Shown piece by piece: positions 24,624 to 50,459 of a stretch of DNA of 64,000 nt (position 1 is its first letter; each line of letters starts with the position of its first letter). The position numbers and the translations under genes are program-made. The notes beneath the pieces were generated by a model. That model saw only the letters and a list, made by a program, of their open reading frames with translations. It was not told the DNA's origin and made no database searches. Where the stretch lies: positions 651,975 to 715,974 of the forward strand of contig JAQOTA010000068.1 of assembly GCA_029532415.1 (NCBI GenBank). Reading direction: 5' to 3'. This DNA comes from Marasmius tenuissimus (taxonomy: Eukaryota; Basidiomycota; Agaricomycetes; Agaricales; Marasmiaceae).

Positions 24624-24631
24624 CGGCCAAG
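24624..24631. repeat. Left target-site duplication CGGCCAAG
   Basis: CGGCCAAG stands directly before the element and is repeated exactly at 45329-45336. The unoccupied paralogue at 13270-13277 carries it once. Confidence 0.9.
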
Positions 24632-24745
24632 CAGATAGCCGTCGAGTTATAAGTAGTCAAACTGAGCCATGCCGTTAGCCCAATGAAGCACCGCCATTAA
24701 CTGTATTGCGGTCCGCTGTCAAGACGCACGTGACCTCGTCGATGT
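24632..24745 (+). repeat. Left terminal inverted repeat
   Basis: It begins CAGATAGCCGTCGAG and pairs with the complement of 45215-45328. Exact shared blocks at equal distance from the ends include AGTAG, CAAAC, TGCCGTTA and, further in, ATTG and CCGC. By eye about two thirds of roughly 110 positions match with only one or two gaps. Confidence 0.75.
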
Positions 24746-24829
24746 TTGAGTTCAACAATTGATCTGAATTGATCTGGCTTCTGCGCTTTGTCAGTCATCC
24801 ACACTTCAGTGATTATTGTGGTGAATCTT

Positions 24830-26130
24830 CCTCGTCGGCGACCAGCTGGGAAGTGAAGGGGGAGATTTCCCCACCTATGTCTATAGTAATAGACTATCCT
24901 GCTGGGCCATACACACGAGTGCTGGATGGGGAATTCTCACCACCGAGGCCGAACTCTGCCTGAGGGGGAAGTCTCAACAATGAACCTGAACATGGCTGAC
25001 GGGGAATAATCCTCCCAGGTGAGTGAGCGGTGAATCTTCCCTCACCAGAGTCATGCTCTAGAAAATTGTGCTCACGGGCCGCCTGGCGGGGAACTCTCAC
25101 CGGTAAGGTTGAACTATGCCCGAGGGGGAAACCTCACCGATGGACCTGAAGGTGGGCTGACAGGGAATAATCCCCCTGGGTGAGTGAGCAGTGAATGTTC
25201 CCTCCCGAAGTCACGCCCAACGAGATTATGCTCGCAGGTCGCCTGGCGGGGAATTCTCACCGATGGATGTGAAGAAGGGCCGACAGGGAATAATCCCCTA
25301 GGTGAGTGAACGGTGAATGTTCCCTCTCCAGAGTCACGCTCAAGGAGATCGTGCTCGCAGGTTGTCAGCGGGGAATTCTCACCAGTAAGGTCAAACTCTG
25401 TTCGGGGGGGAAGTCTCACCGATGGACCTGAAGATGGCCGACAGGGAATAATCCCCCAGGTGAGTGATCAGTGAATTTTCCCTCACCAGGGTCACGCTCT
25501 GAAAAATTGTGCTTGCGGGCCGCCTGGCGGGGAGTTCTCACCAGTAAGGTCAAACTCTATCCGAGGGGGAAACCTCACCAATGGATATGAGCACAAGCCA
25601 ACAGGGAATAATCCCCCTGGACGAGCGGTGAACTCTCCCTCCCCAGAGTCATGTTCAAGGAGATCGTGCTCGCAGGTCGCCTGGCGGGGCATTCTCACCG
25701 GTGACGTCGAACTACGTCTGACGGGGAAATCTCACCATTGGGAATGGACCCGAACCAACGGGGAATTACCCCTCCAGGTGAGTGAGCGGTGAATGTTCCC
25801 TACCCAGGGTCACGTTCGCTGGAGACTTCTCACCGATTTCTCACCGGTGATATCGAACTCTACTCGGGGGGAAATCTCACTGATGGACCTGAAGATGGGC
25901 TGACAGGGAATAACCCCCAGGTGAGTGAACAGTGAACGCTCCCTCTCCTGAGTAGCACTCAGCGAGATCGTGCTTGTTGGCGGGGAATCCTCACCGGCGA
26001 GGTCCAACTCTGCTCGAGGGGGAAATCTCACCGATGGATATGAAGATGGGCCGACAGGGAATAATCCCCCCAGGTGAGTGAGCATGTCTGAGGGGGGAAT
26101 ACTCACCATCTGTACTCAGTCACAATGGGG
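24830..26130. repeat. Left subterminal tandem array, ~150-160-bp units
   Basis: About eight imperfect units run from 24830 to 26130. The marker GGGAATAATCCCC recurs near 25003, 25163, 25286, 25443, 25594, 25756, 25903 and 26055, spaced 123-162 bp. Each unit also holds GTGAGTGAGCGGTGAA and GGGGAATTCTCACC. The many near-palindromes of the form GGGGA-N5-TCCCC are the striking feature. They may be binding sites for the transposase (inference). Confidence 0.85.
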
Positions 26131-26262
26131 AGAACCCACTACTGATGTATCAATCCCGCCCTCAGTGATTATTTTCTCTTCGAGATAGAAAATGTAGCGT
26201 CGACAGGTCCATTTGCCCTGCAATAAGATTCGTGACTCATGAACTCTACACCCTTTTTCTAA
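26131..26262. other. Short spacer between left array and first cargo gene
   Basis: Contains CTCAGTGATTATT, also found at 24800 on the far side of the array. No gene. Confidence 0.4.
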
Positions 26263-27378
26263 CTACTTTGCTACAAGCTCCAATCCCATGTTTGTGATTG
26301 CTCTCCGCTCCTCAGGACCTGCATATGGAAGAGAAATGGTCCCCTTCTCCAATGCGACCTTCCGACCCTGCTCGAGGAATCTCTGTACCGCATTCAAATG
26401 ATGTGTGGACGGCTGGAATCCCCATGTCAGCTTGAAAGTGTGCAACTGCTGGCACTCCAAATCATCCAACAGCGCCACGGATGTCGAATCCACACTCCTA
26501 CCATTCACCTTCATTCTGAAAACCTTCAAACTCCCAAGTCCAAGTACCCCTTCTTCCCGCTAGAGGTCTTTCAGAGCCCACTTCCTTGTAGTCCAGATAT
26601 AGTGCCACGAGCTCACCCTGGGGCATCAGCGCAACATCCATAATGCTGTCGCTGGGGTGCATAGAATGTTCAATGTCTGAATTCCCAACTGGACTGAAGA
26701 TGCCGAGGCCCATCGTAGACTCTTCGTTCCCCAACTCCACACATTTCCATCCCTGATTGGACCCAATGTGAATGTCAGCCCCTTCAATGAGGGCAACTCC
26801 TTCAGCTTGGCCATCATATCCCACATTGTCGACCCCGTTCCAATCTCGTAGTCGCTCATCGATATCACCAACCACTCAATTCCCTTAATCTGCCGTCCCA
26901 CCACGTCCATGACAGAGCACGAGAACTGCACCTGCACTTGGTCATTGCCAATGTAGTGGAATGCTCGCCACCCAACCTGTGCAGCCTGCGACCGTTCGAT
27001 CGCTGGAGATCTAAGCCGATACCCGCGTCCATAAGCCTTCAAGATGATGCGAAACCCCCTTCCCTTCGACTCTGCCAAGTCCACTACGGCCTTGAGTGAT
27101 AAACTTCCTGGCGGCAATTGCAATGGAAAGACATTGTCATGGTATACAACGACATCCTGCCAGTTAGGAAGGTCGAGTACCACCGCTCGCCATTGTTGAC
27201 ACACATCCGAAAAGCGTCGCAAGTCGGAATCCTTCCAATCCCGTAGCATCCCATCTGTTTCTCTGATACGAACACTCTCTGTTTGGGAGTAGACCGTTAG
27301 TGTTTCGGCCGACAGTCCCTCCTCCATCACTTTGCGTACGATCTCCGTTGGGAGCCTGCAGCCTGTCAGAGGATCCAA
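26263..27378 (-). pseudogene. F-box-like cargo protein, interrupted
   Basis: The frame starts at 27378 and stays the same to 26263 (372 codons). It begins with an F-box-like segment (MDPLTGCRLPTEIVRKVMEE) and continues in the style of Agaricomycete F-box proteins, with DLRRFSDVCQQWRAVVLDLP at about residues 53-72 and weak leucine-rich repeats. Such proteins bring targets to SCF ubiquitin ligases. It is broken by TGA at 26626-26628 and TAG at 26560-26562. A frame change near 26700 or an unseen intron is an alternative explanation. Confidence 0.6.
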
Positions 27379-27775
27379 GGACTCAAGGGCGTTTGAGGTG
27401 TGTTGGAGGGAGACATGGTTGTAGAGTTTAGAGAGTTAGCAACACAATCGTCGTGAGCACCTTGCTCGATAAACAGATCAAACTTGTATGTCGACGGCCA
27501 GCACATTGCCTTTCTATTTGAAATTGCGAATACTCACCATTGTACTCGAGGTATAAGAAAAACAAATTGAGGGTTTTCACAACAGGTTGTAGCAGGATTA
27601 GAACATTGGGCTACAAGTCATATCGCTCATAGGGCGAGACCCATCAACTTAGCGGCACTACCACTCCGCCACCAACACATAAAAATTGAACCGGTTTATT
27701 ACAATCCAATCATCATAATATTGCATAGGATAGACAGATAAGCGAAAGCATGAATAACAGGTAATTATTACAAAA
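27379..27775. other. Spacer inside the element
   Basis: Upstream of the F-box-like gene and downstream of the next minus-strand gene. No coding signal seen. Confidence 0.4.
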
Positions 27776-30492
27776 TCAATTCTCGACCTTTGGGACATCC
27801 TCGAAAGTCAGTAAGTCCTCCAAACCAACCAAGCTCGACAGGCCACCATGGTTTCTGAGCTTCTGGAGCGAGGTCCTGACAGGCCCCTGAAGACGCTTTT
27901 GTATAGAGCGCTCAACATAGTGCCCATCCTTCAGCTCGTGTGTCCAAATGTCGTCGAGCTTCATCCCCCAGCGCTTGAGGCGCGTGATTTCGAAGCCACA
28001 GTTGCGGGGTGTCAGGGGGCTGTCGTAGGTCTCCGACCGTCCCTCGTACTCGATCTCGCCAGTTTTCCACAAGTATAACCCCCAGATCGCGTCTTTGAGT
28101 AGACAACCGCAATCACATACCTCTGCTCCTGACTCACTTCTCCTGACGCCGAGCTTAGCGTAAACAATACCCCCTGCACCCTTCGCATCGGCCTCTATCC
28201 GGCTTTTCACTGTAGCTGGATCCGTTGATTCGTATGGGGTGCCGGTAAGCCTACCCTTCTTCTCTGTTCCATCCCACTTCCTGCATGACTTGTCGTTGAT
28301 TTGGTGGTAGTTACACTTGAGGAGAGACGACTTCGTGATGAGGATCATGCGAGACAGCTCATAGCACGCCTTTTCTGCCCCAGGACAGTTCTTGACCGAC
28401 TCTCGGATGTGGTGTCATTGCTTCGTGTCGAGTCGATTCGCGGGGCAGGGGTTGTCCAGAAACTTCTGTATCGCCTCTTGGGTCTCCTCTGGAACAATGG
28501 GTCAGTTATGAACAAAACATATATTAAGGCCACGTACGTTCCAGTTTCCAGCGGGCCTCATTCTTTACGACCACCTCCTCATTATCTTCGATGTCAACGT
28601 CTTCTTCATCGTCTTCAACAGTGTCCTTCTCGCTACCTGACAACTTGGTCGATTTCCCTTTCGTCTTGGATGCGGCTGCAGCTGTGGTATTGCCAGCCGT
28701 TGGTTGCCGCCTTCAACCTTGTCTGGTAGACCTCGAACCTAAGGTCGACCAAGATATTATTGATTGGAAACCAATGATAGGCAATGAGTAACCTACCTTT
28801 GGCCTTGGCCAGATCTGATCCAGACTCCCCACCGCCCTCAACTGGCTTTTCCGAGAGCCGGAGGTGCTCGGTGGGCATACTATCAACCTTGTCGATTTCT
28901 GTGGGTGTACCATCAACCTTGTCGGTCTGTGTGGGCGTATCATCGAGTTTTTCGGTTGCGGTAGGCGTGCCGTCGACCTTGCCGGTAACTCAAGCGTTCT
29001 CAGATACAAACTCCACGGTCCCCTTGACTGCTGTGGGCATTTCCGAGTGCGGGAGGTTCTCAGTAGGTGTACTTTCGACTTTGTTCTCCAATCCCGACTC
29101 CCCGGTCCCGCTGACAGGCTTTATGGAGCCCTGCTGGCTCTCGTTAGGCACCTGCTGCGAGCCTGGATGCGATTCGGGGGAAGTGCCACTGGGTGGGATA
29201 GGCCCTTCCTCAGTAGATAGTATCCTTGTGGACATGCTGTTGGCGGCGGGATCTTGGACTACAGGTACAAGTTGAGACGATGCAGCAGTCGGCGTCGTGG
29301 GGATTGGGATATCGGGTGGGGTACTGGTACCCTCAGGTGCCTTTGGGGCCACTGGAGCGTCGACATCTACACAACCGGTATGTGAGGGATCACAAATAAC
29401 TATGAAATACAACTCACTTTCGTCTGGCTTAGCTGATGCCGGTAGCTCGGGCACATTCACTTGAGTTTGTGCCATCTCTCCCTCTCCCTCTCCAGGCTTT
29501 GCTATTGCTTTCTCTCGGGGTTTCGGTGGGAAATTGACTCGGGGGTTCGCTGTCGGTGTGGCAAGGATATTAGTAGTGTTCAATGACAATAAGAATTGGC
29601 CGGACAACCTTTTCATTCTCTAGCCCACTCTTTCGTCCATCCCAAGTCAGAGCCGTCATCTGTCATATCAGGTAAGAATGTGTCCGATTATCCAGGGGTA
29701 TTGGACGTGAACTTACCAATGACTGGCACAGGATCCTCCTTTGCAATTCGCCTTGATCGCTTCATTGGTCGGGTGCCTTGCTTTTGTGTTCTCGCTGGGG
29801 TAGTGCCTCCCTGTTGCTTCCAGGCTTGCTTCTTGCTGGAACTCCCACCACCGCTTCCATATCCCTGTGAAACTTTCCCTGTCTCGTCCTCCCCATCCGA
29901 CTCCGACAATTCAGAAAGGTCCGAGCTATCGAACAAGTCACCCACTTCTGTGCGCTTGCGCTTCTGATTCTTCTCTCCTGAATGAAAGACGTTATGAACA
30001 CGTCAATTATACCAAACTTATCAACACACCCTTATCTTGTTGCAACGACTGTGCACGCATTTGTATGTCGTCCTCGATGCCGCGAATCTGAGCTTCAAGT
30101 CCCTCGATAGCGGTTTGTCGTGTCGCCAACTCCTTGCTGCGAGTGCTCTTGTGGCTTGACCTCGTGTCCCGTTCAAACTGCTTCAGGCCCTTCTCGTGGT
30201 TTGCCAATTCCACCAGGAGCATTGATCTCTGTGACAATTGGACTGCAAAATAAAGTCAGTTCTCTCTAATGTCCTCAGATAACAAAGCCTCTTTACCAGG
30301 AGTACCATACTTCTCTAACGCTTTGGCGTCAATTGCTGGATGTGACATTGGGACGAATTCACAGAGAGTAAGAGCTTCGTGTGGAGGGGGAAAAAGTAAC
30401 CTGGAGTCTGTCAGAGGGACCATTCTCCCTCCACTTATATCTGAAAACTCACCCATCGGTCCCAAAGTGACGGCAAAAAGATAGAGAGACAT
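27776..30492 (-). pseudogene. Coiled-coil cargo protein with C-terminal Cys/His domain, four TGA stops
   Basis: Eight exons join with consistent phase: 30297-30492, 30030-30242, 29717-29977, 29609-29659, 29418-29549, 28797-29366, 28538-28738 and 27776-28488 (779 codons). The only breaks are TGA codons at 29613-29615, 28990-28992, 28713-28715 and 28415-28417. The protein has a coiled coil (about residues 66-135, LVELANHEKGLKQFERD), an acidic serine-rich stretch (SSDLSELSESDGEDE), repeats of the type KVDGTPT, and a C-terminal domain with CNYHQINDKSCRKWDGT and CDCGCLL that may bind zinc. No known function. It starts only about 50 bp from the divergent F-box-like gene, suggesting a shared promoter. 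Confidence 0.65.
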
Positions 30493-30544
30493 GGATATTG
30501 ATCAAATGTTGAACTGGTGAACCTCTGTAAAGTGCCGGCCGCTA

Positions 30545-31985
30545 ATGTCGGACCGCTCGGGTATTTTATTGACGCTCGAACCTCATTCGACGCGTTCACG
30601 CCACAACTTCTTCAGATCACCAACGTCAATGATGTTTGATTTCCAGCACCCGCTTGTTCTCTTTTTCTTCACTCTCTTCATTATATTTTGCAAATCCATC
30701 TTTTGTGCTATTCTCACTTTTCATCGCTTTCAAAACTCCCGTTCCTCCCGTCCTGTACAAAATCCCCTCACCATTGATGAAATCCAGCGCAACGTCCTCC
30801 TGTTCCTCCCTCAATCTGATCTTGTCAACGTCACAACCCTCTCACGTGTTTTCTACTCAACAGCCCACGAACTATTGGAAATGAGACTTCACCTGCGATA
30901 TTCGGATCGCAGTGTCGTCTGGGAGTACATGTTGCGACAAGGAAACTCGCCGCAAACAACACCCCGATATACCTCTGCGACCATCGACCTGGCACTCAAC
31001 CCAGGAGAAATTTTGTTGGTGTTGCTGCTCACGGGTTCGTTCGAAATCGAAACGGTTGAATTTATGTCCAGCGCACGGATCAGGGCGGAATGGGCCCTCA
31101 ACCTTGGCACCTCGTATATGCTTCCCACCATCATCACACAGCTACAACAGGCCCATCATTTTGTTCTTTTCAACATCTCACTTCGCTTTCAGTGGACCCT
31201 ACTCCATGCAGCAAAAGGCCAGATAACGACGTTGGAAATGCACAACCCCAGAATTCCATCTCACGGTTACACAGTCACCCCGGTTGTATTGCAAACTTTG
31301 CAGGCCTTACACCTATTTGATGACACCTCATCCAGTATCGATTTCCTGCTACGGGTCGTTCAGTGTATAGTTGCCCCAGGCCTCACTACATTGACAATTG
31401 GGAGGTGCTCATCCGGAGGTTCAACGGCAGTTCACGACACAGTGAAGGCATTCAGCGGAAACCTCAGGAGCCTACACATCTTGAACAAAATGCGACCTTC
31501 AGGTGAGTTTTCTGATCAAGCATGTGGACTCTACAAAATTCTGATTAGAAACAGACGACGATATCACAGCAGGCACACCTCTCCCTTCGTTGGCCGCCGT
31601 GCACCACTTGGAACTTGATCTGACCTGGGCCGGTCTCTATTTGTCTACGAGTGGTGAAACATTTCCCTCTGTCCGCACCATTGCGTTACATTCATCGCCC
31701 CTTCAAGTTATGGCAGGGCTGCCCGATCTTGATGCAGTCTGGCTTCGCAACGGCTTGCTACAAGTTGAGGGGACCCTCGAGGAGCTAGAGTTATGCTATC
31801 GCTCATCTCAACGCTATATTCGTGACTCCTTCCGGACCCTGGTTGCCAATCAGCTTCGCGAGGTGGGACCACCTCTGCCCGAAGGTTTGGTCATCATGGA
31901 AGGTTTGAGGGACTATATACCCATTTCACCCCCTCGCGGTGATGCCATAGAAATCGGCCGATTGTGGGATGGATTTGAGGGATGA
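30545..31985 (+). CDS. F-box-like cargo protein, intact
   Basis: Two exons, 30545-31502 and 31549-31985, join in frame (464 aa from the first ATG). A second ATG at 30629 gives 436 aa and may be preferred, because 30545 is only 52 bp from the start of the divergent neighbour. A hydrophobic stretch (VLFFFTLFIIFCKSIFCAIL) near the start could be a membrane anchor. The F-box-like segment follows: LTIDEIQRNVLLFLPQSDLV, then a helical and leucine-rich region. Such proteins usually act as substrate adaptors of SCF ubiquitin ligases. This is one of the few cargo genes with no lesion. Confidence 0.65.
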
Positions 31986-32274
31986 GCGACAGATAACTAT
32001 CCGCCAAAAGCAAGGTCCGGTGGCTTTATGTCAAACTCGTACCTATTTTTCTTGTATACACGATATAGCTTGTCTCTCCTCGTACTCTACGGCTCTACTA
32101 CACTCCATACATACTCTCTCACAGGATTAATCATACGCGTGGGTATATGCCTCAATTTAACCTCACACGTCCTAACTTCCCTCTTTTGGAGTTTGTCTTG
32201 AAACAACTGTTTCGCCACAGTCTCATTGGAGCACCACTGTATGATACTCAGCTCCAGCTCCCATTGCAGTCCAA
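31986..32274. other. Spacer between convergent cargo genes
   Basis: Holds the 3' ends of two converging genes. Nothing else seen. Confidence 0.4.
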
Positions 32275-32694
32275 TTACAAATGCTGAGGTGCTGGCGCAG
32301 AAGAGGTTAGTTCTAGAAATCTTGGTGACCCCTCATTAAACATGCACCAGTCCGAGAAAATGCCGACACGATATCCCTCAGTAACAACGAATCGGTCCTC
32401 CTTCTTCTCCGGCCGATTCAACCATTCGAGGAGCCCACACCTCTGACAAATCTCAAGATCGCGTTCGGCAGCCACGCGGTCCTTGTAAGATCTCACGAGA
32501 CCGTTGAGGCCTGGATCCTGAACTATCTCGTGACTGAGAGGTGAGCGTTTCGAAGCATGATGATGATTGTCACAAGCTCACTGAGTGTAAACGCCAGGTC
32601 TCGATCCCTGATAAACGAGCCATGGACCCTTGTCAATTTTATCGCGAAGGTGGGAGAGATCAACGACGGGTTTGGGAGGAAGTCTAAGGGGCAT
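32275..32694 (-). CDS. RNase H1 N-terminal-like (viroplasmin-like) small protein, 123 aa
   Basis: Two exons, 32582-32694 and 32275-32533, join in frame. Two segments share the pattern of the RNase H1 N-terminal (hybrid-binding) fold: WLVYQGSRPGVYT near residue 25, followed by VRSYKDRVAAERDL, and RFVVTEGYRVGIFSDW near residue 80. In known proteins this fold binds RNA-DNA hybrids or double-stranded RNA. There is no RNase H catalytic domain. The gene has no lesion. Recognition rests on short motifs, so the family call is tentative. Confidence 0.5.
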
Positions 32695-32994
32695 AGCACT
32701 GAGTGAGACTGAGTGGCGTCTCGGAAGAAAATGTTAATTTATAGATTTACATCGAATGACACAATACGTTAATCAAACGCAAATCGCTGGCTTATCAGTG
32801 ATTGACTTCGGAGTTCTGGAATCCGGAAAATGTATCTACCAAAAATTGTTGGGATGTTTTGTTGACGGTACCCAGGGATACCAGTCTTCAAGGTCAACTC
32901 CCCAGTGGTCCTCGAAGCAACGTTCAGATCGTTCTGCAATGCTGAGGTCCCCTGGACAGTGACAGGCTAAGCCCCTCACCCGGAAGTTCATCTC
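32695..32994. other. Spacer inside the element
   Basis: No supported coding region. Confidence 0.4.
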
Positions 32995-34209
32995 CTACTC
33001 CTCTGACATCATTCCCACATCCGCACAATGGATACACCCACCCTTCAAGACACAATCCGATCTTACCAAGAAGTTCCACACGCTCTCAGCCATCGCGTCA
33101 TCTTGAAAGCCCACCATTACACCAGGTGCACATGTGATGGATAACATCCACAGTCGAGGGCAGCAAAGGCCGTCGAACACCGTAAAGAGATCTGCCGTGC
33201 CTGTGCCTGAAGTAATCATGACGATGCCGAGCTCCTGAAGCGCCGTATGTCTCAGAATCTGGGGACGTTGCCATGTCGGAGTTTCATCTGCCGTCAAACC
33301 CGCGTGAACAACTTCGACCACAGGGCAAGCACCCAACAACAAGGAGAGGGCGGAAGGGGAGGAATGTTTAAGGTTGAGCACAGTGAGCCTACGCCAGATC
33401 TCAGTGTCAAGAGAGGGATGTGAAAGTGATAATGACCAGTCGAACTGCTTTCCCATATTGAGACCTAGATCCAAGTAACGTAGCTGGGGCGCTGAGCCGA
33501 GTCACTGAATGAGGTCGGATAGTTCTTCTGTATCGCGTTCATCAGGCCTGTGACTCCCGTGTCCAGCTGACAATAGCAAGTCGGTGATCTCTCTCCACCG
33601 CATTGAGTTCTGTAATTTTTTGACCAGCTCATAGACATGAAGCCAGCCATGTCCCGCAAGGGGTGCGCTGAGCGTAACGGAAGCCCAGGGTGAACTGGGC
33701 CTGGTTAGGAGGAAATCAAATAATTGGGTGTCGAAAACCTCGAAGAAGTAATCTTGATTTAGGACGACCTTGATGTCAAGGCCTCTGCCGCCTGCAGATT
33801 CCAAGCACTCTATGAGTCTGCTCTTCATCTCATCCAAGCGCTGCTGTGGTAATGCCACACCCCAATCAGGGACGTCCAGGTTGATGTCGGCCAGTCTCCT
33901 CCATTGCGGCCAGGCTGAATATCGAAATATAACTGAACAAGAGATAGGGAGCATTCCGCAAAGGGCCCGAAGTCGCCGCGAGGTATTAGAGAGACTGAGG
34001 AGGTCTGCGTGTGGAGACGAAATAGACCCAAGCGTCATGTTGAAAATCCATACAGCTCGATCCCCTAGGACCAATTGTAAGATCTCGAGCCATATCTTTG
34101 CCTCGACACTGTTCCGTAAATCAATCAGGGTTTGTCTGGGTGTATTACCGATCAACAATGCACCGCTCGATTGGATGAAAATTTCTTGTTGGCTGCCCTT
34201 CGTCGCCAT
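32995..34209 (-). pseudogene. F-box/LRR-like cargo protein with one TGA stop
   Basis: A single frame of 405 codons starts at ATG 34209 and is interrupted only by TGA at 33502-33504, where the sequence reads SDLIQ-stop-LGSAPQLRYLDLG. An arginine codon there would restore a normal leucine-rich repeat. The N-terminal half has SNTSRRLRALCGMLPISCSV and DINLDVPDW, typical of fungal F-box proteins that feed SCF ubiquitin ligases. The C-terminal half has weak leucine-rich repeats (ALQELGIVMI, RLWMLSITCAPG). No introns are needed. Confidence 0.6.
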
Positions 34210-34926
34210 GTTTTTTGAGGTGAGACCCAGAGTTGGTGCTGCAGTCGGTGGTGAGACTTGACATGCTCAAAGATCAGGAAGGCAGTTGAGTGGTAGCAAA
34301 ACAAAAACGCACGCAACGCTGGTCACCATAGGAGCTGTTTTCAATATCGAGTACGGGGGTCCAGGGAGGTGACTGCAAGTTCGTTTGACGTCCTTTGCAA
34401 TGTTGTTTCAGTCGGGCTGTGTGTCCGGGGAATGAACCAGGAATAAACCCGAACCTGCTGTTGTACTATGTGGTGACCAGTGAGTCTCTTACTGATTGTC
34501 TCAGCGACAGCCTTATCGAGTCGCCACACTTTCTTTGATATGTATTTCAATAGTGAATTTCATCAAGAGACTGAGCTTACCAGGCCACATCTATCGTGCG
34601 ACACAAAGGTGAGGAAATATGAAGACACCAAGACAGGAGTGGCGTGCGGCTACAGGCGCGTCTCTGATTCTCTGGTGTTCTCTCGGGTGACAACCTACTT
34701 TCCCACTTCGAACCTGACCAGAGTCTTTTGAGTCGAAATCAAAGGCTATATCTGAAGAGCGGTGGGTCAGCCCTGTCCTGAGTAAAGGTTGGAACCGATG
34801 GCAAAGCTGAGAAACAATGGACACCGACGCAACGGCAACTTGAAGGATTCACCTCTTACTTTCTAGTTCCTACCCTGATACAACCCAATTCACCGTCGAG
34901 TCATCATTTGAACCGCGAGTAAACAC
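34210..34926. other. Spacer inside the element
   Basis: About 700 bp with no frame I can support. Confidence 0.4.
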
Positions 34927-35610
34927 TTGATTTGGAGGGAGGGGACGAGTTTGGTTTTGAGCAAAAGGTTTGTGGACTTGCGCACCGGTATTGAAATTTG
35001 TCGTACTTCCCAGCTCCCACTCGAGTTCCAACCAATTGATACCCACTTGAATCCTACAAATAGTCAGCTCAGTAGAGTACGCAATCTGTATCTGGAGTCT
35101 GGCGCATGGAATTTACGGCAAGTAGAAGATTGGGAAGCTGCGAGATTCGAGAGGCTCGACAAGGCTTTGGTAGCGGAACTGGCCTTCTGCCGGGCTCCTC
35201 GTCGTGTCTGAAGTAAACCCCTGATCTTAAGTGTTCAGGATATATGTTAATTGGAGTAGGAGGAATCTGATGAAAAGGTCAGAATATGTGGAGAGATCCA
35301 GAAAGCCTTAGCGCACCGCTAGGTACAACATGTCCTTTTCTTCGAACTCAAGGCCCCATTCGAGTTTCAACCAAATCTCATTGATTACAAGTCCAGTAAC
35401 CGCTGGATAAAGTGTACAAGTAATTGAGGTAGACTAATCCACGAGTTCTGTCGAGAGCAGAAGGTCAGGACACTGCCAGAGGTTGACTTTGCGATTGAAC
35501 ATTCCGTAGCACGCGACAACTCTCGAAGTAGACTATTCCTCACGTCTAAACCTAAATGTCGACTTCTGGCACTGATCACGATACGAGGCAGCCGCAACGC
35601 ACCTAACAAA
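34927..35610 (+). pseudogene. Duplicated small coding remnant
   Basis: A frame at 34927-35211 (94 codons, containing VDLRTGIEICRTSQLPLEFQ) is followed at about 35290-35560 by a related but broken stretch in which FELKAPFEFQPNLIDY can be read. The two look like a decayed tandem duplicate, perhaps of an F-box C-terminal end. There is no clear start or function. Confidence 0.3.
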
Positions 35611-35741
35611 CTCTGTGCTACATGTCCTTATTCTACTGGTCCATGGTGGTTAGTTGCGGTTGAAGGCAAAGAGTCAGGAAACGGTTGTGTCAGTGATGTG
35701 CTATATTTATCACACATACATCTTCCTCTCTGCCCGTCACC

Positions 35742-36611
35742 ATGCCGCGACCGAAAATGTACAGAACAAAGGCTGAACATCGAGAAGCACAAAAAGCCAA
35801 GAGCCGTCGTCACTACGCTAAGTAAAGCTACATTATGTACTCTCTATATTTTGTTCAAGGTCTGATAATCTAGTATAGGCATCGGGATCAAATCCTCGAA
35901 TCCAAGCGAGAGAAACGAGATAAAGAACAGAAGGCACTGGAGCTCCAAGAGTGAGTCAACGCCAGGATGCTCTATAAATTACTTCTAAGTGAAGGTTTTC
36001 AGGATAGCCAATCGAAAATGGAGGCAGAAAATGAGGGAGAAAATGTCACCAAAAACTGAGAAGACCACCAATGATATCGAACCCATTCTCCCCAAAGACG
36101 ATATAGCTAGTCGCAAACTATGGCACAAGTGAGCTGAGGGACTGCCTCTTCTGACTACTGACTAACCCTTAGTGTGCACAGGCCGCTAGAAGAACAGAGG
36201 GAGGCACTGATCACTCAATATTGCCGATACATTTATCCTGGCCCACGCACATTCCTCACCCACATCAGCAATGAATTCATCACCTGGCGAGAAGAGAGCC
36301 TGCTCCACAGACCGCTCCATGATTGACCCTCCCGGTCTCCTCTCCTTGAGGTTAAGGAGTACGTTGAACATCTTCATCACGACCTTTACAGGCTGCAAGA
36401 CGAATACCTCTACTTGACGAGGGATTGGACAGGTCTAGACTGGCAGAGGAAGCGTAAACAGTTCACAGACTCGACGAGTAGTGTGTCGTTGTTCTTGGAC
36501 ATGGTGAGCAACATCATATATGCAGTAGACGATGATGAGCTTGAGGAACGATTGATTGAGGAGAGATTACACTACTTCACCGTCTATTCTGTCACGTCAG
36601 GCTATTGCTAG
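35742..36611 (+). pseudogene. Small basic cargo protein (MPRPK type) with one TGA stop
   Basis: Four exons join in phase: 35742-35821, 35879-35950, 36003-36128 and 36182-36611 (236 codons). The start MPRPKMYRTKAEHREAQKAK and the following lysine/arginine-rich helix are characteristic of short basic proteins found repeatedly near transposase-like genes in Agaricomycetes; a DNA-binding role is plausible but unproven. The second half has helical segments (EYVEHLHHDLYRLQDEYLYL). The only break is TGA at 36324-36326 (LHD-stop-PSRSP), where arginine fits. Confidence 0.6.
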
Positions 36612-36903
36612 TGTACCTACCGTTGATCCTGCCGTGGTACGGTTAGTGTTATCCAGTAAAAAAGATAACCTGTGATTGTCTCATTATTAAATGGAATAAT
36701 TGACGTATGAATAAGGGATCTAGTGAGTTCTGGTCGCCGCGAACGACCCCAATCTAGGGTGCTTGGGCCTGACTAATTTAAATCTTGAATCTTGACTCAA
36801 GTCAGTCAAGTTCCGTGACTCTGCAACCGGAGATACATCTGTCAGATTGGTTTCCAAGGTAACATAGAAGTACAGGGAAGTACACTAGGTATGCTACAGG
36901 CGA
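36612..36903. other. Spacer inside the element
   Basis: Lies between converging genes; no gene seen. Confidence 0.4.
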
Positions 36904-39082
36904 CTAATAGCGCGAGCCCGTGAGCTGGCCCACATCTCCACCCTGACTACTGACATATTCTATGAGCTTATCGATAAGGGCCTGTTTCTTGGCCACCTCA
37001 GTCTTGGCAGCATCCAGCTCTGCTCGGCATTGGCTGGCTTTGAGATGCACGTCAACAATATTCTCACGACGCACAGCCTTCAGAGCAGAGAACAGACCAC
37101 TGGTGGTGCTGTCAAAACGAGCCTGAGTGTCCGGCGGGAGGTCCTGTCTCATTGAAGGAGACATCCAATGTACATATTCACAATGTACATATTCACCATG
37201 TACGGATGGATGGTTGGCACCAATTTGAAGCCAACAACCGGTTTCATCTGCCAGTCTTTCACACTAACGGAGGACACATCAGCCAGCGAGAAATCGAGAT
37301 TGATCGTAAACTGTGCATACCTTGAGTAGAATACGGTCTAGACCTTGCATGAACCGCCTGTTCATGTCTTTCCTCTCGACACGCCCAATGAGACTTCCGG
37401 TGCAGACGACCTCTGAGAATGTGATATATCAAAACTTCTTCCGGATGACCAGCTCGGAAAATGTACCGTATTTCAATGAACCTTTGTTAGCAGACATCAT
37501 TCCAAAACTCGGATGGGCATGTGTCGGGTGCTCTCGTCGTCCATGCAAATAAGTGCGTGGATACCTTATACGAGAGGACTGAGATGGCGTGGATGGTGGT
37601 GAGCTGGAAGCAACAGAGACCGAGATGGGAGAATATGTGGGATTCGATTCGATAGACGAATTGGTTGTCGGCGATGGTACAGAGTTACCTGCTATTGAAT
37701 CAGTGAGTAGCCATGGATAAGCAAAAAAAAAGAAAAATTGAATACCATAAACATCAGGATGGCTGCTGGCAGAGGGACGGTCGACCTCTTGATGATTGGT
37801 TTGTCCTATGGCATCGACAAGAGGCTCCATGAAGGGCGTCGTTGCAAACCGAAGGCCATAGGGATCATCTTGAGTAAGAATCGCTGCCGCAGAAAAATCT
37901 CCCATGAGAGGTGGAAGCGCTGGAACATTCGAAAGGGGGTTCAGACGGGAAAACTGCTGCACAGAAAAAAACAAACTTACCGGGGGGCGATAAGCGTTCA
38001 GGAAAGGCTGTCATAGCAGAATTGGAAAAAAAGTAGCGTAAGCCTAAATCCCGGCGGCATTATTGTTGAGTTCGGAACGCACCAGACAATGATACCTGGG
38101 CCTGTGGAGGTTCAGTGCCGTGCTGAAATGCCCGGGACTGCTCTGACTGAGCTTGTGTCGGGGTGTTTGCAATATCTAGAGACACGGGAAGCATTGGAAT
38201 ATTCGAAACGGGGTTCAGACGTGAACACTGCAGCACAGAAATAAAATTACCTTACCGGGGGGCGATAAGCGTTCAGGAAAGGCTGTCGCAGCAGAATCGA
38301 AAAAAAGTAGCGTAAGACTAAAGTCCCGGCGGCATCATTGTTGAGTTTGGAACGTACCAGATGACAAAGCCTGGCCCAGTGGAGGGTGAGAGCCCTGCTG
38401 AGATGCCCGAGATTGCTCTGGCTGAGCTTGGGCCAGCGCGTTGGCATTCTCTGGAGAGACCGGCGGAGTGAGAGGTAGCAGAGAGATAGAAGAGTTTGTA
38501 GGAGGCGTGTGTGATCCTTCGGTCTGAGACACAACGGGGGAGAGAGGGTCGCCACTCTAAGAAGAAGTGAGCTCCTCGAGTGATGAAGTTGGAGGTAGTT
38601 GCTTACCTTACCAGCCTTCAGAGCGCGAGTTTGAGCACGCCGCGAGTGTATGGTACACTCTTTCTGCAGTGGGTGGGGTGGTGGACATTTTTTACAATGA
38701 TGAGGGCCAGTTGGTTGTTGACCTGTATCTGCTGCACCTTTTTTACGAGGTGAGCGGCGCGGCTCAGGGGGAGAGGGTACCATGAAATGCATCACACAAT
38801 CATGAGCGCCGTTTTTTAAGAGATTGGCACTGGCAATCGTGATCGAGATAAATGGGGATAATCAGGAATAATCTAGGCAGCAGCGTGATGAAGCATGGTG
38901 CTCTGGGATAACCTGTGATGAGCTGGAGTGGATTGGATCTCAGGACATGACAAATTCAAAATTGAGAGAATAACCTCTTTTCCCAGAAATATTTTTATCA
39001 TTAATTCCAAATATTGTGGCTCAGAACGAAGGGTGGCGGCAAATACGGCTTCCGAACCATCCGGTGGCATTACTGGCTTCAA
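36904..39082 (-). CDS. Multi-exon cargo protein with Cys-rich knuckle, structure partly resolved
   Basis: Exon-like pieces on the minus strand, in order, are 38873-39082 (MKPVMPPDGSEAVFAATLRS), about 38590-38790 (PHHCKKCPPPHPLQKEC, a possible zinc-binding knuckle), about 38370-38540 (Pro/Ser-rich), small repeated exons between 37980 and 38290 (PFLNAYRPP twice), 37740-37950, 37555-37690, about 37320-37440 and a last exon 36904-37164 with a helical end (VHLKASQCRAELDAAKTEVA). A 272-bp tandem duplication (37921-38192 and 38193-38465) has doubled two exons. Junctions at both ends are uncertain. Function unknown. Confidence 0.45.
37921..38465. repeat. 272-bp tandem duplication inside a cargo gene
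   Basis: Two adjacent copies begin GGAACATTCGAAAGGGGGTTC and GGAATATTCGAAACGGGGTTC, and both contain GGGGGGCGATAAGCGTTCAGG. The copies have diverged by about 15 percent by eye. Confidence 0.75.
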
Positions 39083-39134
39083 TTGGTTAGTTCTTGTTAC
39101 AGTATAACTGCGAAACGAACACTGTCGTACCTCA

Positions 39135-42100
39135 ATGACAACCGCCTCACTATTTGACGAAGTCTTCCGACACGAGAGTATTCCGGAGAAGAGAAGAGAC
39201 AGCAGTCTGTGGCATGGTGTGGGTGACCTTCAGAAGCACGGCAAAGATGGGAGGGGCATCGACAATGTGTGGGCAACCTTCAACAGCGGCATGGATCGAG
39301 GGGCCCTGATGCCGCCAACACAGGAGAGTCCCATGAAAAAGAGAAAAACTCGGGCTCCGAATACAGATGGGAGGCGGCGGACTCGCAAGGAGAGAAGGAA
39401 GCGTGTAGAACCTGAGGGTATATCGACAAACAATATGCAATTCGCGCTGACGACCACTACAAGCACATTCGATTTGGGGGAATATGACGACAGCCCATTG
39501 GCGCTGGGTAGTGATCCGTGTAGCGAGGAAGGGAGAGAGGAAGGGAGGATGGCAGAAGATGACAAGCTGGGGGAATACATGGAACTCTTCCAAGCTGGGT
39601 CTGTTGGATTCATCCTTGTTGGCACATATCTATATGTAGTGCAAGGTTGGGACAAACGAAAACGTGAACCTACAGTGAGAATCATGACTACTTTGGAAAA
39701 GATGGAATACTTACAATCTGAACAGGATAAATGGTATCACTTCGAGGCAAAAAGAGTGGGAGATGAAGTTTGAATCGTCTGCCTATGCCCTCAGGCCAAC
39801 AGCGATGAAACTTGTGTCCACAAGGAAACCTATCTGGAGTTCCGAGAGGAAGAGTTTCGTGCGCTAGAGGAAAGGGTTTTCGTCTGTAAGTTCATGATTT
39901 GGATTGTGGTTAGCAAACTCACTGACGCCAAGCGAAGCTGTACGCGTAGTTTGGTTCTGGAGAGTGCTGGAAGTCAATACACCTGACGAAGGGATGCGGT
40001 GGATCAACTGGTTTTCTGTTGGCTTGGGGCAGGAGAGAAATGCCGCTGTGAATACAAGAGTTATTGTGTCGTTCCTTGGCTCCGATTCAGGCTCAGGCGT
40101 TTGGGCATGCTCCGAATGCTCTGGAATGAAGTGTGTGCACAGGTCAGCTGCACGAGGACTTTTTGGCCGGGTGATGGGGATAGAGGATCTTTCGGATAAC
40201 CTCGAAACGTTGACGTTGGACTTGGACAAAGAAGAAAAAGAGGACGACGTAGTGATGTGTGAGTACCCGTCCTATTCGTGGGCATATCAATGATAACAGT
40301 GAACAATTTATATAGTCGCTGATGGGCATGGTGGTCGTCTCGAGGATGTCTCCATCTCCTATCTCCCAATCCGTCCACCTATCTGGGCCGAGCTCCCTGA
40401 TGATCACCCTCACTATCCAAGGCCGTCCTCGCGGGAGGAACATCCGTCACGAACTCCTTTGCTGGCCAAAAATCACAGTCTATGTGGGCGTGAGGAGTGT
40501 ACAATCGCAAGCGACCTGAAACTTGTCAAAAAATGCACCATTTACGACGTCAACAAAGCACATACCGCCGACATCGAGTTATCGCCTTGTAGTCTGTGTC
40601 CTGCCCGCAAGCATTGCTTCATTGGGCCAGAGACACGCGATGCTGGGTTATTCAACTACAACAACAGCGTGCTCTTCACCCATGACCTCCTTGACGAGTA
40701 CACGAGTCAGTTCACAACCAGCGAGACACCATTTGTTGCGTTCGTTGAAACAACAAAGCGGTGGTACGAGAGGAGTGGGTCCAGGTTTGTGAAGGAGGAT
40801 TTATTTCAGTCCACCTGGTTTGCCTATGTCAAGATCCAGGACTTTTCAAACGACATGTTCTGCAAATGGTGTGGCAAAGAGCCCGATTGCCTTATATGGG
40901 ATGGCGTCACTCTCGGGTTCGGAAGGAAACATTTAACAGACTCACTGAGACCTCCAATGTACACTGATGATCGGTCCCCGCAGCGAAGAGGGAAGTATGC
41001 CATCAAGCCACAGCTTCTAGCAGACCAGCAAAAGCTTCGACGCCTCATCAGAGGATGGGTGAAGCGGGGGAACAAAACGAGCGAGAAGTCAACACGTGAA
41101 AGGACAGATGGCGAGAACAGGGAGGCGGATGCATTGGACGTTCTGGGGGAATTCTGGAACATTGTTGGTCAATTGAATGGCTTGTCCTGTGAGCTGGCGC
41201 TGCTCTTCAATAACAACCTGTCCCCGACAACGGTAATCAGCCCAAGGCTAAGACAGGCGTACGTTGTATTCTTCGAACAGGTGAGTATGAATGACAAGTG
41301 TATGGAAGAGGACTGAAATAGAGACGGCGTAGATTGCTGCTGAGGAGTCAGCATTGCAGATGATCAGTGTAAAATCCCTGCCACTGCTCGGGGACTTCGT
41401 ACAGCAGCCGACATGGGAGATGGGATCGAAGCTTGTTGATATTCCGGCACTATACAATGTACTCGAGGTCGAATTCCAGGTGAACGGCAGGTATCCAACG
41501 GAGATGACGAAGGTAGTGCAGTGGTTATGCGAGAGAACGAACGCAGTGTGGATAGATACATGCAGTCGTGATAGTGGGCTGGGGGATGATGAGGTGATGG
41601 ATGATTCATGCGAGTCGAAATCATGGATGCAGGTGAGGTCGGCGATGTTCTCGCAGATAATTGAGCTGACTGTAGTACTTTTCTCCAGACCGGTTGCTGC
41701 TACAGCCTACCCCAGTTGCGTCGAAGGCCGGTATACAAATCATTAAGAAAAGACGGTGGGGTCGACAACGCCCAAGATGGTGAACGTGGAGGAAAGTGTG
41801 CGAAGTATTGCTCGACATACGGCGACAAACGGCTGACTGGGGGTATAATGGCAGTTTGGTGCACCCACAGCATCTGCTATGGGTTCCACTGTATCACCAA
41901 GGGGGAAGGCCGCAACGATGTGTTCTCCGCCATGTATACGCGCTGGAAGAGGGCTCCGAGATGTGTTATCTATGATTTCGCGTGTGCCCTGGGACCGTAC
42001 TGCATGTCAAGAGAACCTCATTTCTTCAAGGATATGCAATTCATGATCGACAAATTCCATGCACCTGGACATTCTAAATGTTCCTCAGCCTGTTTCCTCG

Positions 42101-42276
42101 CCAACTATGTCACAACGGACCCATCCTTAGTTAAGGTCAATAGCAGTGCAGCAGAGTGCGGAAATAGCGGTATAGGGAGAATCAGAAAGAGTGTGAGCTA
42201 TATGAGACAGGACAGGGCGATATTGTATACGAAAGTGTTTCTCTCGGTGTGGAATAGAGGGCAGCTAAGGAAATAG
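39135..42276 (+). pseudogene. KDZ-type transposase with SWIM-like finger and Cys clusters, one TGA stop
   Basis: Five exons join with perfect phase: 39135-39885, 39914-40258, 40316-41280, 41333-41632 and 41689-42276 (983 codons). The N-terminal part is basic (MKKRKTRAPNTDGRRRTRKE). A SWIM-like zinc finger follows (CLCPQANSDETCVHKE), then Cys clusters typical of KDZ-associated proteins (CSLCPARKHCFIGPE, CKWCGKEPDCLIWDGVTLGF). The C-terminal core has GGIMAVWCTHSICYGFHC, the acidic site IYDFACALGPYC, DKFHAPGHSKCSSACFL and SSAAECGNSGIGRIRKS, matching the RNase H-fold catalytic region of this superfamily. The only break is TGA at 39771-39773, just before the SWIM-like finger. The core is otherwise intact. 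Introns before 39700 cannot be excluded. Confidence 0.8.
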
Positions 42277-42539
42277 GGTTACTTAATTTGTTTGTACTCA
42301 GCGCCTACGCTCCCCAGCGCTTACCTAGGGTACTTGGCGCCTACTTAGCCTCCGACCTCATGATCAACGCGTGGTACTAGATATTGGTCAAGCATTGCGG
42401 AATGGTGTTGGGAAAAAAATCAAATAAGATTATTTATATGTTGTACTTCAACATTCACTCCGTATACAGAAGTCCATCGCCGTCTTTATCAGTAAAGAAA
42501 AGAAAGAGATTGCGGACCCAGAGCTCTGTCTCTCCGCCG

Positions 42540-43496
42540 TCATTTCTCTCTCCGATAAACTAGGTCCATGATACAGTCAGCCAGCAGTATGATATCCGAG
42601 GTTCGGCAAAAACATACCAAGGAGCTGTTGAGTGCGACGCGACCAGCCTTCACGTCTAATCTCATCTGCATAAAATTCATCCACAAGTGTCGTAAATTGG
42701 GATATCGTGCGAGGACCAAATCAACACGCTCCTCGGTCATACCCGGAAGGGTGATGAGCATGTTGCGTCTGATCTGACGAAGGAAAGGGGAGGGGCTATG
42801 GGGTTTCAGGATGAGCCGTGGGCCAGAAATCAGAATGAGAGTCACCTGTTATCAATGCCTGTCAAAATGTGTCAGCCTCGAGCGACGCGTACCAAAATCA
42901 AAGCGACCCACCATGAACATAAGAAACATCTGGCTAGCCGCCTCGGTGACACTGTTGGCCGAGCGGCGCATACATGGAAGGACAAGCTCCAATCGACACA
43001 TAGCCTCATCAATCACGTTTCTGGACCCAAGGGAGTTATGGTCATCGCGAATACCATATGTGAGGACGATTGTTCGTTGATGGAGCTTCTTCTGACGGCG
43101 CTCTCGGCGAAAAGCCTCTACAAGGCCCGAGAGGGTATCGAGCGCTACGTGTAGATCGGCATCGCCCTCGTCCAACCAGAGTAGAGTTAGCTGCCGGTTG
43201 GATTGTAGCCCAGGTACATTGAGAAACGAGACAGCGTTGAAGTTGTTATCTCGTCCCACAGTAACCTTGATGTGTGCACTGAGTTGTTGTTCATTGATGA
43301 TGTCTTTCAGTGTAGGTCGGAGAGCTGGATGGCTCGACTCCAGTGCGCGTGAGACTTCGATGGTCGCGGATGAAATGGTTGGGAGAGTGTATAGGGGGGG
43401 ATCGGAATAGATGGAAGAACAGAAAGAGTGAAAAATTGCTCTGGAAAAAGTTACTCCAGACATCACCGGCACCATTGGCACGTGAGTTGAAATCAA
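42540..43496 (-). CDS. Cargo protein, F-box/LRR-like, possibly partial
   Basis: Two frames on the minus strand cover 42852-43496 and 42540-42845. A likely intron with GTGACT and a CGTCAG acceptor separates them near 42780-42850, after which IRRNMLITLPGMTEERVDLV and YPNLRHLWMNF can be read. The pattern resembles the C-terminal leucine-rich part of fungal F-box-like proteins, but no F-box is seen. It lies between the transposase and the right array. Start and joins are uncertain. Confidence 0.4.
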
Positions 43497-43504
43497 ACAT
43501 CGAA

Positions 43505-45010
43505 TAAGGTGAAACCTCCCCTGCTAGGTCAGAGCTTGGTGACGAGTGAAAAGTCCCGCCAAAGATAACAACGCCAACGGGGAATCGTCTCCACTGAGCT
43601 CAATCTGCTGTGAAGAGGGAGCATTCCCCGATTACAACCTGGCTTCGACAGCAGCATGAACATTGCGTGCAAGAGGGAAAATACACTGTAGACTTACCTC
43701 GCAGTGAATCCTCCCCTCTCAGGTCAAACTTGCCGACGAGTGAAAAACTCTTGCCAAAGGTCTAACAACACCGGCGGGGAATTATCCCCACCGAGCCCAA
43801 TATGCTCTGAGGAGGGAATACTCTCCGACTACAAGCTGACTACGAGGGCTGCGTGAGCATTGTTTGCGAGGGAGAAAATATATCGTAGACCTACCTACGG
43901 TGAAACTTCCCCTCACCACTCAAAGCTTTCCAATGGGTGAAAAATCACAATCCATGGTCAAAAAGTTCCAATGGGGAATTGTCCTCGCCCCAACAACATG
44001 TTGTGAGGAGGGAATTCTCCCCACTACAGCCTAGCCATGACTCCAGCACCGTAAATATGGTGAGTGAGGGAGAAATCAATTGTAAAGGTACCTCTTGGTA
44101 AGCTCTCCCCTCGCAGCTCAAAACTTGCCAGCGGGTGAAAAATCCCCGTCGAATATTGAACAAGGTCAATAGGGAATCGTCCCCACCGAGCCTGATCTGC
44201 TGTGAGGAGGGAAGACTCTCCGTCTACAACCTCGCTATGAGAACAGCGTGAAGATGGTGTATGAAGGGAAAATATACCGCAGACCTACCTCGCGGTGAAG
44301 ATTCCCCGCCCAAGATCTAATAACGCCAACGGGGAATCGTCCCCATTGAGCTCGATCTACTGTGAAGAGGGAATATTTCCCGACCAAGAGGAGGCATTAT
44401 GGACGTGCTCCACAGGGAATTCTCCCCTCGCAGCTCAAAGTCTGCCGGTGGGTGAAGATTCCCTGCTCAAGATCTAACAATGCCAACAGGGAATCGTCCC
44501 CACTGAGCTCGATCTGCTGCGAAGAGGGAATATTCCCCGACCAAGAGATGGTATTATGGACGTGCCCCGCAGGGAATTCTCCCCTCCCAGATCAGAACTT
44601 GCTGAAGAGTGAGAAATCCCCGCCCGAGACCTAACAACGTCAACGGGGAATCGTCCCCGCCAAGCTCGATCTGCTGTGGGGAGGGAATACTCCCCGCCCA
44701 CAACCCAGCTACGGGAGCAGCGTGAACATAGTGTAAGAAGGGAGAATCTACTGCAGGCTTACCTCATGGTGAATTTTCCCCTCACAGCTCAAAGTCTGTC
44801 GGTGGGTGAAAAGTCCCCGCCCAAGATCTAACAGCGCCAACGGGGAATCGTCCCCACCGAGCTCAATCTGCTATGGAGAGGGAATACTCCCCGCTCAAGA
44901 GAAGGCATTATAGACGTACTTCGCAGGGAGCCCTCCCCTCCCACGTCAAGGCTTGTTGACGAGTGAGAAATCCCCCTCAAGGTTTGGGTCGTGAACGGGG
45001 TAGCCTCCCC
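43505..45010. repeat. Right subterminal tandem array, 157- and 196-bp units
   Basis: Nine units are marked by GGGGAATCGTCCCC at about 43579, 43776, 43973, 44170, 44330, 44488, 44644, 44839 and 44995. Spacings fall into two classes, about 196 bp and about 157 bp, differing by a ~39-bp block with GTGAACATTGTG. Each unit also carries GAGGGAATACTCCCCG. The motif grammar, read on the other strand, matches the left array, so the two arrays are probably inverted counterparts. Confidence 0.85.
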
Positions 45011-45214
45011 ACTAAACCGATACCTTGCGAGGGAAAACGCATTGCCCACGAGCCTATCTGGGCGCCACTGTGGATGAGAGCCAGAGGGGGAAGTCACCGG
45101 TAGATGTCAAAGGGGAAACCTCCCCATGCACACCTCTACCCAGGCAGGGAGAACTCCCCAAGACGGATGTGAAAAACGTAGCGATAACAGTTGTCAGTTT
45201 GATTACTGTTGGTA

Positions 45215-45328
45215 TGGGCTGTGCGATCATGTGTGACTTAACGGCGGGATGCAATTCAATGAAGGGCGGCATTACTTTGCGTTAACGGCACGGTTCGTTT
45301 GCTCTACTACACACTTGCCGCCTAGGCC
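45215..45328 (-). repeat. Right terminal inverted repeat
   Basis: Read on the minus strand it begins GGCCTAGGCGGCAAGTG and aligns with 24632-24745; shared blocks are AGTAG, CAAAC and TGCCGTTA. The outermost four bases do not match between the ends. Confidence 0.75.
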
Positions 45329-45336
45329 CGGCCAAG
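45329..45336. repeat. Right target-site duplication CGGCCAAG
   Basis: Exact repeat of 24624-24631, followed by TTAGGTATGTG, which continues the host intron as in copy E. Confidence 0.9.
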
Positions 45337-46345: not shown

Positions 46346-46798
46346 GTCTTATTGATCGTCAATCATTACTTTCAGCACGCCGTGGAGGACATGGAAGCCT
46401 CACATCCTGGAGACGAAAGCCTTTCATGGGACCTCGTGCGTATTGAATACGTACCTATCACGCTTACAGCTCTTTATTCATGTTTTGTATCCATTATGGT
46501 GAGCAAACCATTTACGGTGTGTGCATTAACCTGAGTTGGTCGCTGACAATGCACCTAGGGAATTGCTTCCACCTTGGTCATCGTACGCTCAGTACTGGGA
46601 ATCGCCATCAACGACGAGAAATCTTATAGGGCGACTGTTTTAGGGGAGGGTGATTGGAATGAGGGAGCTCATCGAATGATCGATAGCTATATTGACATTG
46701 GGAGACGCGATGAGGCAGTCGTGGTGACGGGCATTTCGGATGAAGAGAATCTTGCGTGTATGGCGTGCAGAAAGAAGTCAGAAAAATCGACTGACTGA
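46109..46798 (+). CDS. Chimeric frame: disordered-protein C-end joined to 7TM helices 6-7 and tail
   Basis: One open frame runs from 46109 to the donor at 46499 and then joins exon 46559-46798 in phase. The first part is the disordered protein's last exon (MMHARAKLEAENSW). From TVLLIVNHYFQHAVEDM on it is the second half of 7TM exon 9, ending ALYSCFVSIM, followed by the normal last exon (STLVIVRSVLGI, CMACRKKSEKSTD). The true 7TM N-terminus is missing. Expression is unknown because the upstream promoter was cut away by the giant element. Confidence 0.55.
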
Positions 46799-46799
46799 A

Positions 46800-48330: not shown

Positions 48331-48334
48331 CCTT

Positions 48335-50445: not shown

Positions 50446-50459
50446 TATGTACATATTTT

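Follow-up and report, generated by a model that had tools for sequence, protein, structure and literature searches.

Borders, gene content and relatives of a 20.7-kb KDZ-type element in Marasmius tenuissimus

Borders of the element and the uninterrupted target

The window analysed here is the final 64 kb of contig C26 (651975-715974) of a Marasmius tenuissimus assembly of 71.06 Mb in 70 contigs. It harbours an element of 20,697 bp that encodes a Kyakuja-Dileera-Zisupton (KDZ) transposase and about eight other genes, lies between two identical octamers and interrupts a member of a repeated sequence family. The extent of the element was taken from breaks in paralogue alignments, from alignments of the joined flanks and from its inverted ends. 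Positions refer to the window unless a contig (C with a number) is named, and the outer features are as follows.

24632..45328, no strand: complete element of 20,697 bp, bounded by the two octamer copies
24624..24631, plus strand: target site duplication (TSD), left copy, CGGCCAAG
45329..45336, plus strand: TSD, right copy, CGGCCAAG
12306..14113, minus strand: uninterrupted paralogue of the target sequence, outside the element, with the empty site at 13270-13277
24632..24741, plus strand: left terminal inverted region, starting with CAGATAGCCG; identical start at C65:204687, near-identical start at C22:53901
45219..45328, minus strand: right terminal inverted region, its inward reading starting with GGCCTAGGCG; identical start at C4:212269, C22:35146 and C3:4433664
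24928..26084, no strand: tandem array next to the left terminus, built of units of about 157 bp and containing a GGGGAAnnTTCCC-like motif
43508..44975, no strand: corresponding array next to the right terminus, its units likewise about 157 bp long and sharing the motif

The octamer occurs five times in the window when both strands are counted and, taken by itself, is therefore weak evidence for an insertion. Strong evidence for the borders is given by the paralogue, in which CGGCCAAG is read on the minus strand at 13270-13277 and whose alignment to the flanks breaks exactly at the octamer: 13270-14113 matches 24631-23788 (87.0%) up to and including the octamer, and 12306-13277 matches 46335-45329 (75.6%) from the octamer onward. 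Furthermore, when the insert and one octamer were removed by script and the flanks joined, the resulting sequence aligned without a break through the junction in four places, namely to 14113-12306 (80.8%, 1882 columns) and 56302-57218 (66.0%, 1012 columns) of the window, and to loci L045 (79.6%, 1890 columns) and L046 (74.1%, 1306 columns) of contig C60. The interrupted target sequence is a member of a repeated family; its open reading frame (ORF) and that of the intact paralogue, the two that were scanned, gave no Pfam match at E 0.01.

L045 and L046 correspond to C60:149001-152500 and C60:161501-166500, respectively. A stretch of the same contig is 93.5% identical to 12.2-14.9 kb of the window and is followed, about 13 kb on, by an uninterrupted relative of the target sequence (74-81%). 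This region of C60 may be derived from the second haplotype, its allele being empty, or from a segmental duplication.

Over 110 bp, the inverted ends are identical in 71 of 111 alignment columns, and none of 1867 random pairs from the window was as good (score 27 compared to a maximum of -4). The termini of the element read CAG..GCC. In the window, all 24 occurrences of the GGGGAAnnTTCCC-like motif, which was picked after inspecting the sequence, fall within six 1-kb bins of the two end regions, and the 58 other bins contain none. The motif is present again in both end regions of the related element on C65 and was not found in the elements on C22 or C31. Flanking octamers, inverted ends of about 110 bp and an unoccupied paralogue reading through at 13270-13277 had all been named in the original prediction, and these alignments bear out each of them.

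Transposase and sister elements

39135..42276, plus strand: transposase gene with SWIM-like and CxC4 clusters and a KDZ domain, in-frame TGA at 39771-39773; annotated as PM082_015514 (P0004)

The expected KDZ-type transposase was confirmed by comparison to profile hidden Markov models. The KDZ transposase domain (PF18758) was matched in the ORF at 41716-42273 (E 5.5e-8, 33.2 bits, over the cut-off of 26.6) and CxC4 (PF18717) in the ORF at 40459-41313 (E 5.1e-38); a six-frame search located the KDZ match at 41842-42114 (E 2.6e-6). Both domains occur in the annotated protein PM082_015514 as well, and the SWIM-like label was given by eye and from the names of relatives. In NCBIfam, no family was obtained for the proteins P0001, P0003, and P0004. 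A wider protein database contains 184 relatives of the transposase at E <= 0.001, and to our knowledge those named among the 120 matches listed all belong to the Agaricomycetes.

The transposase frame of the window copy is interrupted by the TGA at 39771-39773, around which the annotated model P0004 omits a stretch, and the homology of the accessory gene B continues past an in-frame TGA at 28415-28417. Both codons would be disabling unless they are removed by introns; relatives without these stops exist. Due to the in-frame stop codons, the window copy is probably not autonomous, being an ageing insertion in which the transposase gene is no longer intact. In a second M. tenuissimus assembly (AAF712), the search of annotated proteins gave transposases that are at best 57-64% identical to that of the window, and on this basis the element of the window seems to be absent from that strain. 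Gene F of a C65-type element is present there (99% in the first exon), and gene F and a transposase bear the adjacent locus numbers AAF712_005637 and AAF712_005638, with the same length given for their contigs.

A search of the genome for CxC4 revealed 12 loci, corresponding to 11 elements if those on C4 and C65 are counted as one. The ends of these two contigs (C4:213124-233380 and C65:205000-225256) overlap within one element over 20,258 aligned columns at 99.985%. Since the ends overlap and the flanks share the string TCCACGAA, they probably represent a single element of about 21.4 kb by coordinates. The assembly probably failed to join the two contigs in the subterminal repeats.

Contig C31 carries two copies of 21,466 bp each (492824-514289 and 789209-810674), inverted, about 275 kb apart and differing at 4 positions, with the exact octamer pairs TGATAGGT/TGATAGGT and CTGAGCAA/CTGAGCAA at their ends (read on the plus strand of the contig). 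Because near-identical, inverted copies sit in different octamers, the whole 21-kb multigene segment has transposed recently in the C31 family. The element on C10 (5496949-5520912, 23,964 bp) has AATTTTTC on both sides. Its inverted repeats extend over 606 bases at either end with 6 mismatches, a far closer match than between the ends of the window element, and continue into subterminal arrays. The element on C22 shows ends of the expected kind at 53901 and 35146.

Duplications of 8 bp were found in five of six bounded insertions (window, C4/C65, both C31 copies, and C10); neither the element at C54:527352 nor the termini at C4:95324, C20, C54:477258, and C3 (left end) enter this count. The bounded insertions form five families, each of which has CRGATAG at the start of one terminus and GG at the start of the other. 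A longer left-end pattern gave 196 matches with up to 3 mismatches compared to 203 for the control; 3 matches are exact, all of them at CxC4 elements.

Accessory genes and their conservation

The remaining features inside the element are given below.

26266..27435, minus strand: gene A, F-box-like, homologous in C65 and C22; approximate extent, exons partly resolved
27779..28414, minus strand: gene B, conserved, unknown fold, with homology beyond the in-frame TGA
30521..31982, plus strand: gene C, F-box-like to judge from homology, with counterparts in C65 and C22
32090..32733, minus strand: gene D, small protein with a weak RNase H1 N-terminal (Cauli_VI) match, homologous in C65 and partly in C31
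32995..34209, minus strand: two ORFs for which no family match exceeded the cut-off and which have no homologue in the other three elements compared
35709..35822, plus strand: fragment with homology to an ORF from C22 that is small and basic (E 7.8e-5)
36907..38010, minus strand: gene E, multi-exon conserved protein, function unknown
42464..43496, minus strand: gene F, conserved protein, function unknown

Six-frame ORFs of the window, C65, C22, and C31 elements were compared by blastp at E 1e-4. The common gene order is A (-), B (-), C (+), D (-), E (-), transposase (+), F (-). Genes A, B, C, E, the transposase, and F are shared by the window, C65, and C22; D is common to the window and C65, and C31 has B, part of D, E, and the transposase. 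Genome-wide searches were run for B, C, E, and F. All 15 matches of gene B and all 12 matches of gene E are located at CxC4 loci, each covering 10 of the 12 loci. The distance upstream of CxC4 is 10.4-17.4 kb for B and 3.0-9.5 kb for E, and each of the two genes is on the opposite strand at all 10 of its loci. Likewise, the 13 matches of gene F are restricted to CxC4 loci (6 of 12). In case of gene C, five of nine matches are at CxC4 loci and four weak ones (24-26% identity) elsewhere. As the genome contains 165 KDZ matches, counted by exon pieces, and B, E, and F occur only at CxC4 loci, these three genes are specific to the CxC4 lineage, as opposed to KDZ elements at large. The genes that the original prediction had taken for cargo are indeed present, but due to this restriction of B, E, and F the label is misleading.

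Third codon positions were the most changed in all 11 comparisons, which covered seven genes and left out D (e.g., 59/53/122 changes at first, second, and third positions for B, 17/13/55 for E, and 114/103/155 for A), an excess as would be expected for genes under selection. Several of the extra genes, including F-box-like ones, look like a set travelling with the transposase family and not like random cargo.

F-box-like matches were obtained in all four elements read (window, C65, C22, and C31), over the curated cut-off only in C65. There, the homologue of gene A is F-box-like with E 1.5e-7 and that of gene C matches F-box with E 2.3e-4. In the window, the ORF of gene A remains below the cut-off (E 0.0013, 19 bits compared to 20.5) and that of gene C gave no F-box match, and the C22 homologues of both have matches below the cut-off. 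The F-box-like genes proposed from the window alone are upheld through their relatives on C65, but the assignment is borderline for the window proteins themselves.

Gene D matches PF01693 below the cut-off (E 0.01-0.02). For B, E, and F, no Pfam family was matched over its cut-off, and the folds predicted for B and F were unusable (mean pLDDT, i.e., predicted local distance difference test, of 33.9 and 39.8, respectively). A reading of gene F by eye as an XPF/EME1-like nuclease with helix-hairpin-helix was dropped, since phmmer gave only two chance-level matches (one being FAAP24 with E 0.6), a three-sequence profile gave none, and the fold had the pLDDT of 39.8. Among about 5.8 billion proteins, the relatives of B and F were in each case the window's own protein and one M. 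tenuissimus protein; this word-based search indicates rarity at close range, not absence.

A gene of the C22 element has a weak TET/JBP match below the cut-off (E 0.012 and 0.007) and, by ORF comparison, a homologue in C65. In the window element, no TET/JBP gene was recognised by ORF comparison. A genome search with PF12851 gave one weak match, 38 kb from the nearest CxC4 locus, and due to the fact that it missed the C22 gene its sensitivity is low. Furthermore, in addition to gene B the C22 element contains a second, partial copy of this gene (C22:49346-51081), and the C31 element contains a 552-aa ORF (L033:1987-3642, plus strand) with no Pfam match at E 0.05 and no homologue in the three other elements.

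Interpretation, alternatives and relation to known systems

The borders of the element are defined and flanked by an 8-bp duplication, its ends are inverted, sister elements exist, one sister family has transposed recently, and the accessory genes are conserved. The element is very probably a cut-and-paste KDZ transposon of the CxC4-transposase lineage, inserted into a member of a repeated family and equipped with a conserved gene kit. The zinc clusters of the transposase would bind the inverted ends and the subterminal motif arrays, and the enzyme would excise the whole segment and join it to a staggered cut of 8 bp. The accessory genes (two F-box-like ones, B, D, E, and F, and a TET/JBP-like gene in some sisters) may be kept because they help the element, and the F-box proteins might perhaps steer a host ubiquitin ligase. 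We regard as speculative, though possible, the wider proposal of CxC4-KDZ elements as self-equipped multigene transposons in which F-box proteins turn the host ubiquitin ligase on silencing or repair factors, B, E, and F take part in excision, in the choice of target or in replication, and F-box genes were recruited repeatedly by KDZ transposons (fish, fungi).

Several observations weigh against this interpretation. With respect to the ends, the 300-bp ends of the window element match only themselves genome-wide and are single-copy as exact ends, whereas related elements with a similar terminal layout and mostly with their own 8-bp duplications do exist. Measured by the refuting condition of the original prediction, a lack of other copies with matching ends, the outcome is thus mixed, though favourable. 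The C22 element, the sixth bounded insertion, has no matching octamers at its ends, and in case of C4/C65 the shared string exceeds 8 bases, is placed one base off with respect to the conserved termini and combines flanks from two different contigs. The CRGATAG end is far from the transposase in the window, C4/C65, and C22, and adjoins it in C31 and C10. The shared end layout is partly circular, because the ends of C22 and C4/C65 and one end of C10 were recognised by their likeness to known ends; only those of the window and C31 and the second end of C10 are independent of this. The short right-end pattern, with 19 matches compared to 25 for the reversed control, is no commoner than the control and thus meaningful only beside a CxC4 locus.

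With respect to the genes, no homologue of A or C was detected in C31, its match to F is only weak (27.6%, E 1.4e-5) and differently placed, and it contains two other F-box-like genes below the cut-off (20.7 and 20.1 bits compared to 24.3); part of the gene content of these elements therefore turns over. B and E were not found at C54:527352, B not at C3 and E not at C20, the first of these possibly being a truncated or different element. Synonymous divergence (dS) is saturated in most comparisons, and for this reason no ratio of the dN/dS type is claimed. Finally, the functions of the accessory genes are something that we only infer.

The alternative that survives best accepts the transposon as real and regards the other genes as host genes carried as passive cargo, similar to Starships. 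It overlaps with the preferred explanation and, taken as a whole, is unlikely. The different F-box-like genes of C31, the ORFs at 32995-34209 without homologue in the three other compared elements and the four weak relatives of gene C outside CxC4 loci are in agreement with it, whereas the restriction of B, E, and F to CxC4 loci within this genome, the constant position and strand of B and E and the codon-position constraint are not. For part of the F-box content, passive cargo may be the correct description.

That the KDZ gene is a passenger in a larger element moved by another enzyme is very improbable. The element exceeds the 9-11 kb of the Cryptococcus KDZ elements (PMC12810828) and contains several genes of unknown function, but the KDZ gene is the sole recombinase recognised among the ORFs scanned, a scan that covered part of the ORFs and gave no match to a tyrosine recombinase (DUF3435). 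Moreover, TSDs of 8 bp are made by Zisupton, by a Dileera element and by Cryptococcus KDZ1, and the KDZ exon is the best-conserved stretch between the window and C65 (87% compared to 33-77% in the other compared genes). The dense array of diverged repeats in this region might suggest that no transposon is involved and that, after an old duplication, rearrangement removed 20 kb from one paralogue or added them to it. This can practically be dismissed in view of the break exactly at the duplicated octamer, the inverted ends and the sister copies elsewhere with octamers of their own, the C31 pair being strong evidence against it.

As a CxC4-KDZ transposon, the element shows the superfamily features PF18758, a CxC-type cluster, an 8-bp TSD and terminal inverted repeats (TIRs), and the features of Kyakuja were not found. 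The KDZ1, KDZ2, and KDZ3 elements of Cryptococcus neoformans are similar in combining KDZ with a CxC cluster, in their long TIRs (139-241 bp) and in their TSDs (8 bp for KDZ1, 4-8 bp for KDZ2 and KDZ3), and insertion of such elements into a reporter gene was observed (PMC12810828). They differ by their length of approximately 9-11 kb and by CxC1 in place of CxC4; no extra genes are mentioned in the available text, and the term F-box does not occur in the main text (PMC12810828). In M. oreades, a species of the same genus, the TIR motifs of KDZ and Plavaka elements and the TSDs of KDZ elements were characterised, with no gene set described in the available text, and both groups are called understudied (PMC8290104). 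The borders of KDZ elements are thus less rarely defined than the original prediction had presumed.

Accessory genes are likewise carried by TET-bearing fungal Kyakuja, Dileera and Zisupton elements, with 8-bp TSDs for Zisupton and a Dileera element (PMC12730594), and the weak TET/JBP-like match in the C22 sister with its C65 homologue resembles these. In contrast to them, the window element has no recognised TET/JBP gene, and the main text of PMC12730594 contains no mention of F-box; Kyakuja elements have a 7-bp TSD, CA..TG ends and no TIR, compared to 8 bp, CAG..GCC and TIRs in the window (PMC12730594). An association of F-box with a KDZ-superfamily transposon is known from fish Zisupton (Bohne et al. 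2012, via PMC12062965), where the F-box domain is part of one protein isoform, unlike the separate F-box-like genes of the multigene element described here (PMC12062965). Starships are also large fungal elements with many genes, but according to the sources available they are described for Pezizomycotina and classified by their tyrosine recombinase, whereas a KDZ transposase and TIRs are present here.

KDZ elements with TIRs and 8-bp duplications, and KDZ elements with one extra gene, are already known. The literature searched, which left out most subscription papers and was available in part, described no CxC4-KDZ element that is similarly large and has a conserved set of several genes, and no paper contained both CxC4 and KDZ. 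This one large lineage allows the borders, the layout of the ends, the motif arrays beside them and the conserved genes to be read together, with evidence that 21 kb moved recently as a unit. It also illustrates that apparent cargo can belong to the element's own set. The Zisupton precedent was mentioned in a study of F-box genes from 2025, which, as far as its available text goes, reported having seen no evidence that transposons captured F-box domains (PMC12062965); CxC4-KDZ elements provide a direct test case for this question.

Outside the element, 3272-24356 and 45418-63594 of the window consist of dense, diverged repeats in both orientations, mostly 65-80% identical, and the element lies inside one of these units. 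A reverse transcriptase ORF (RVT_1, E 2.5e-16) is located at 989-1918 on the plus strand.

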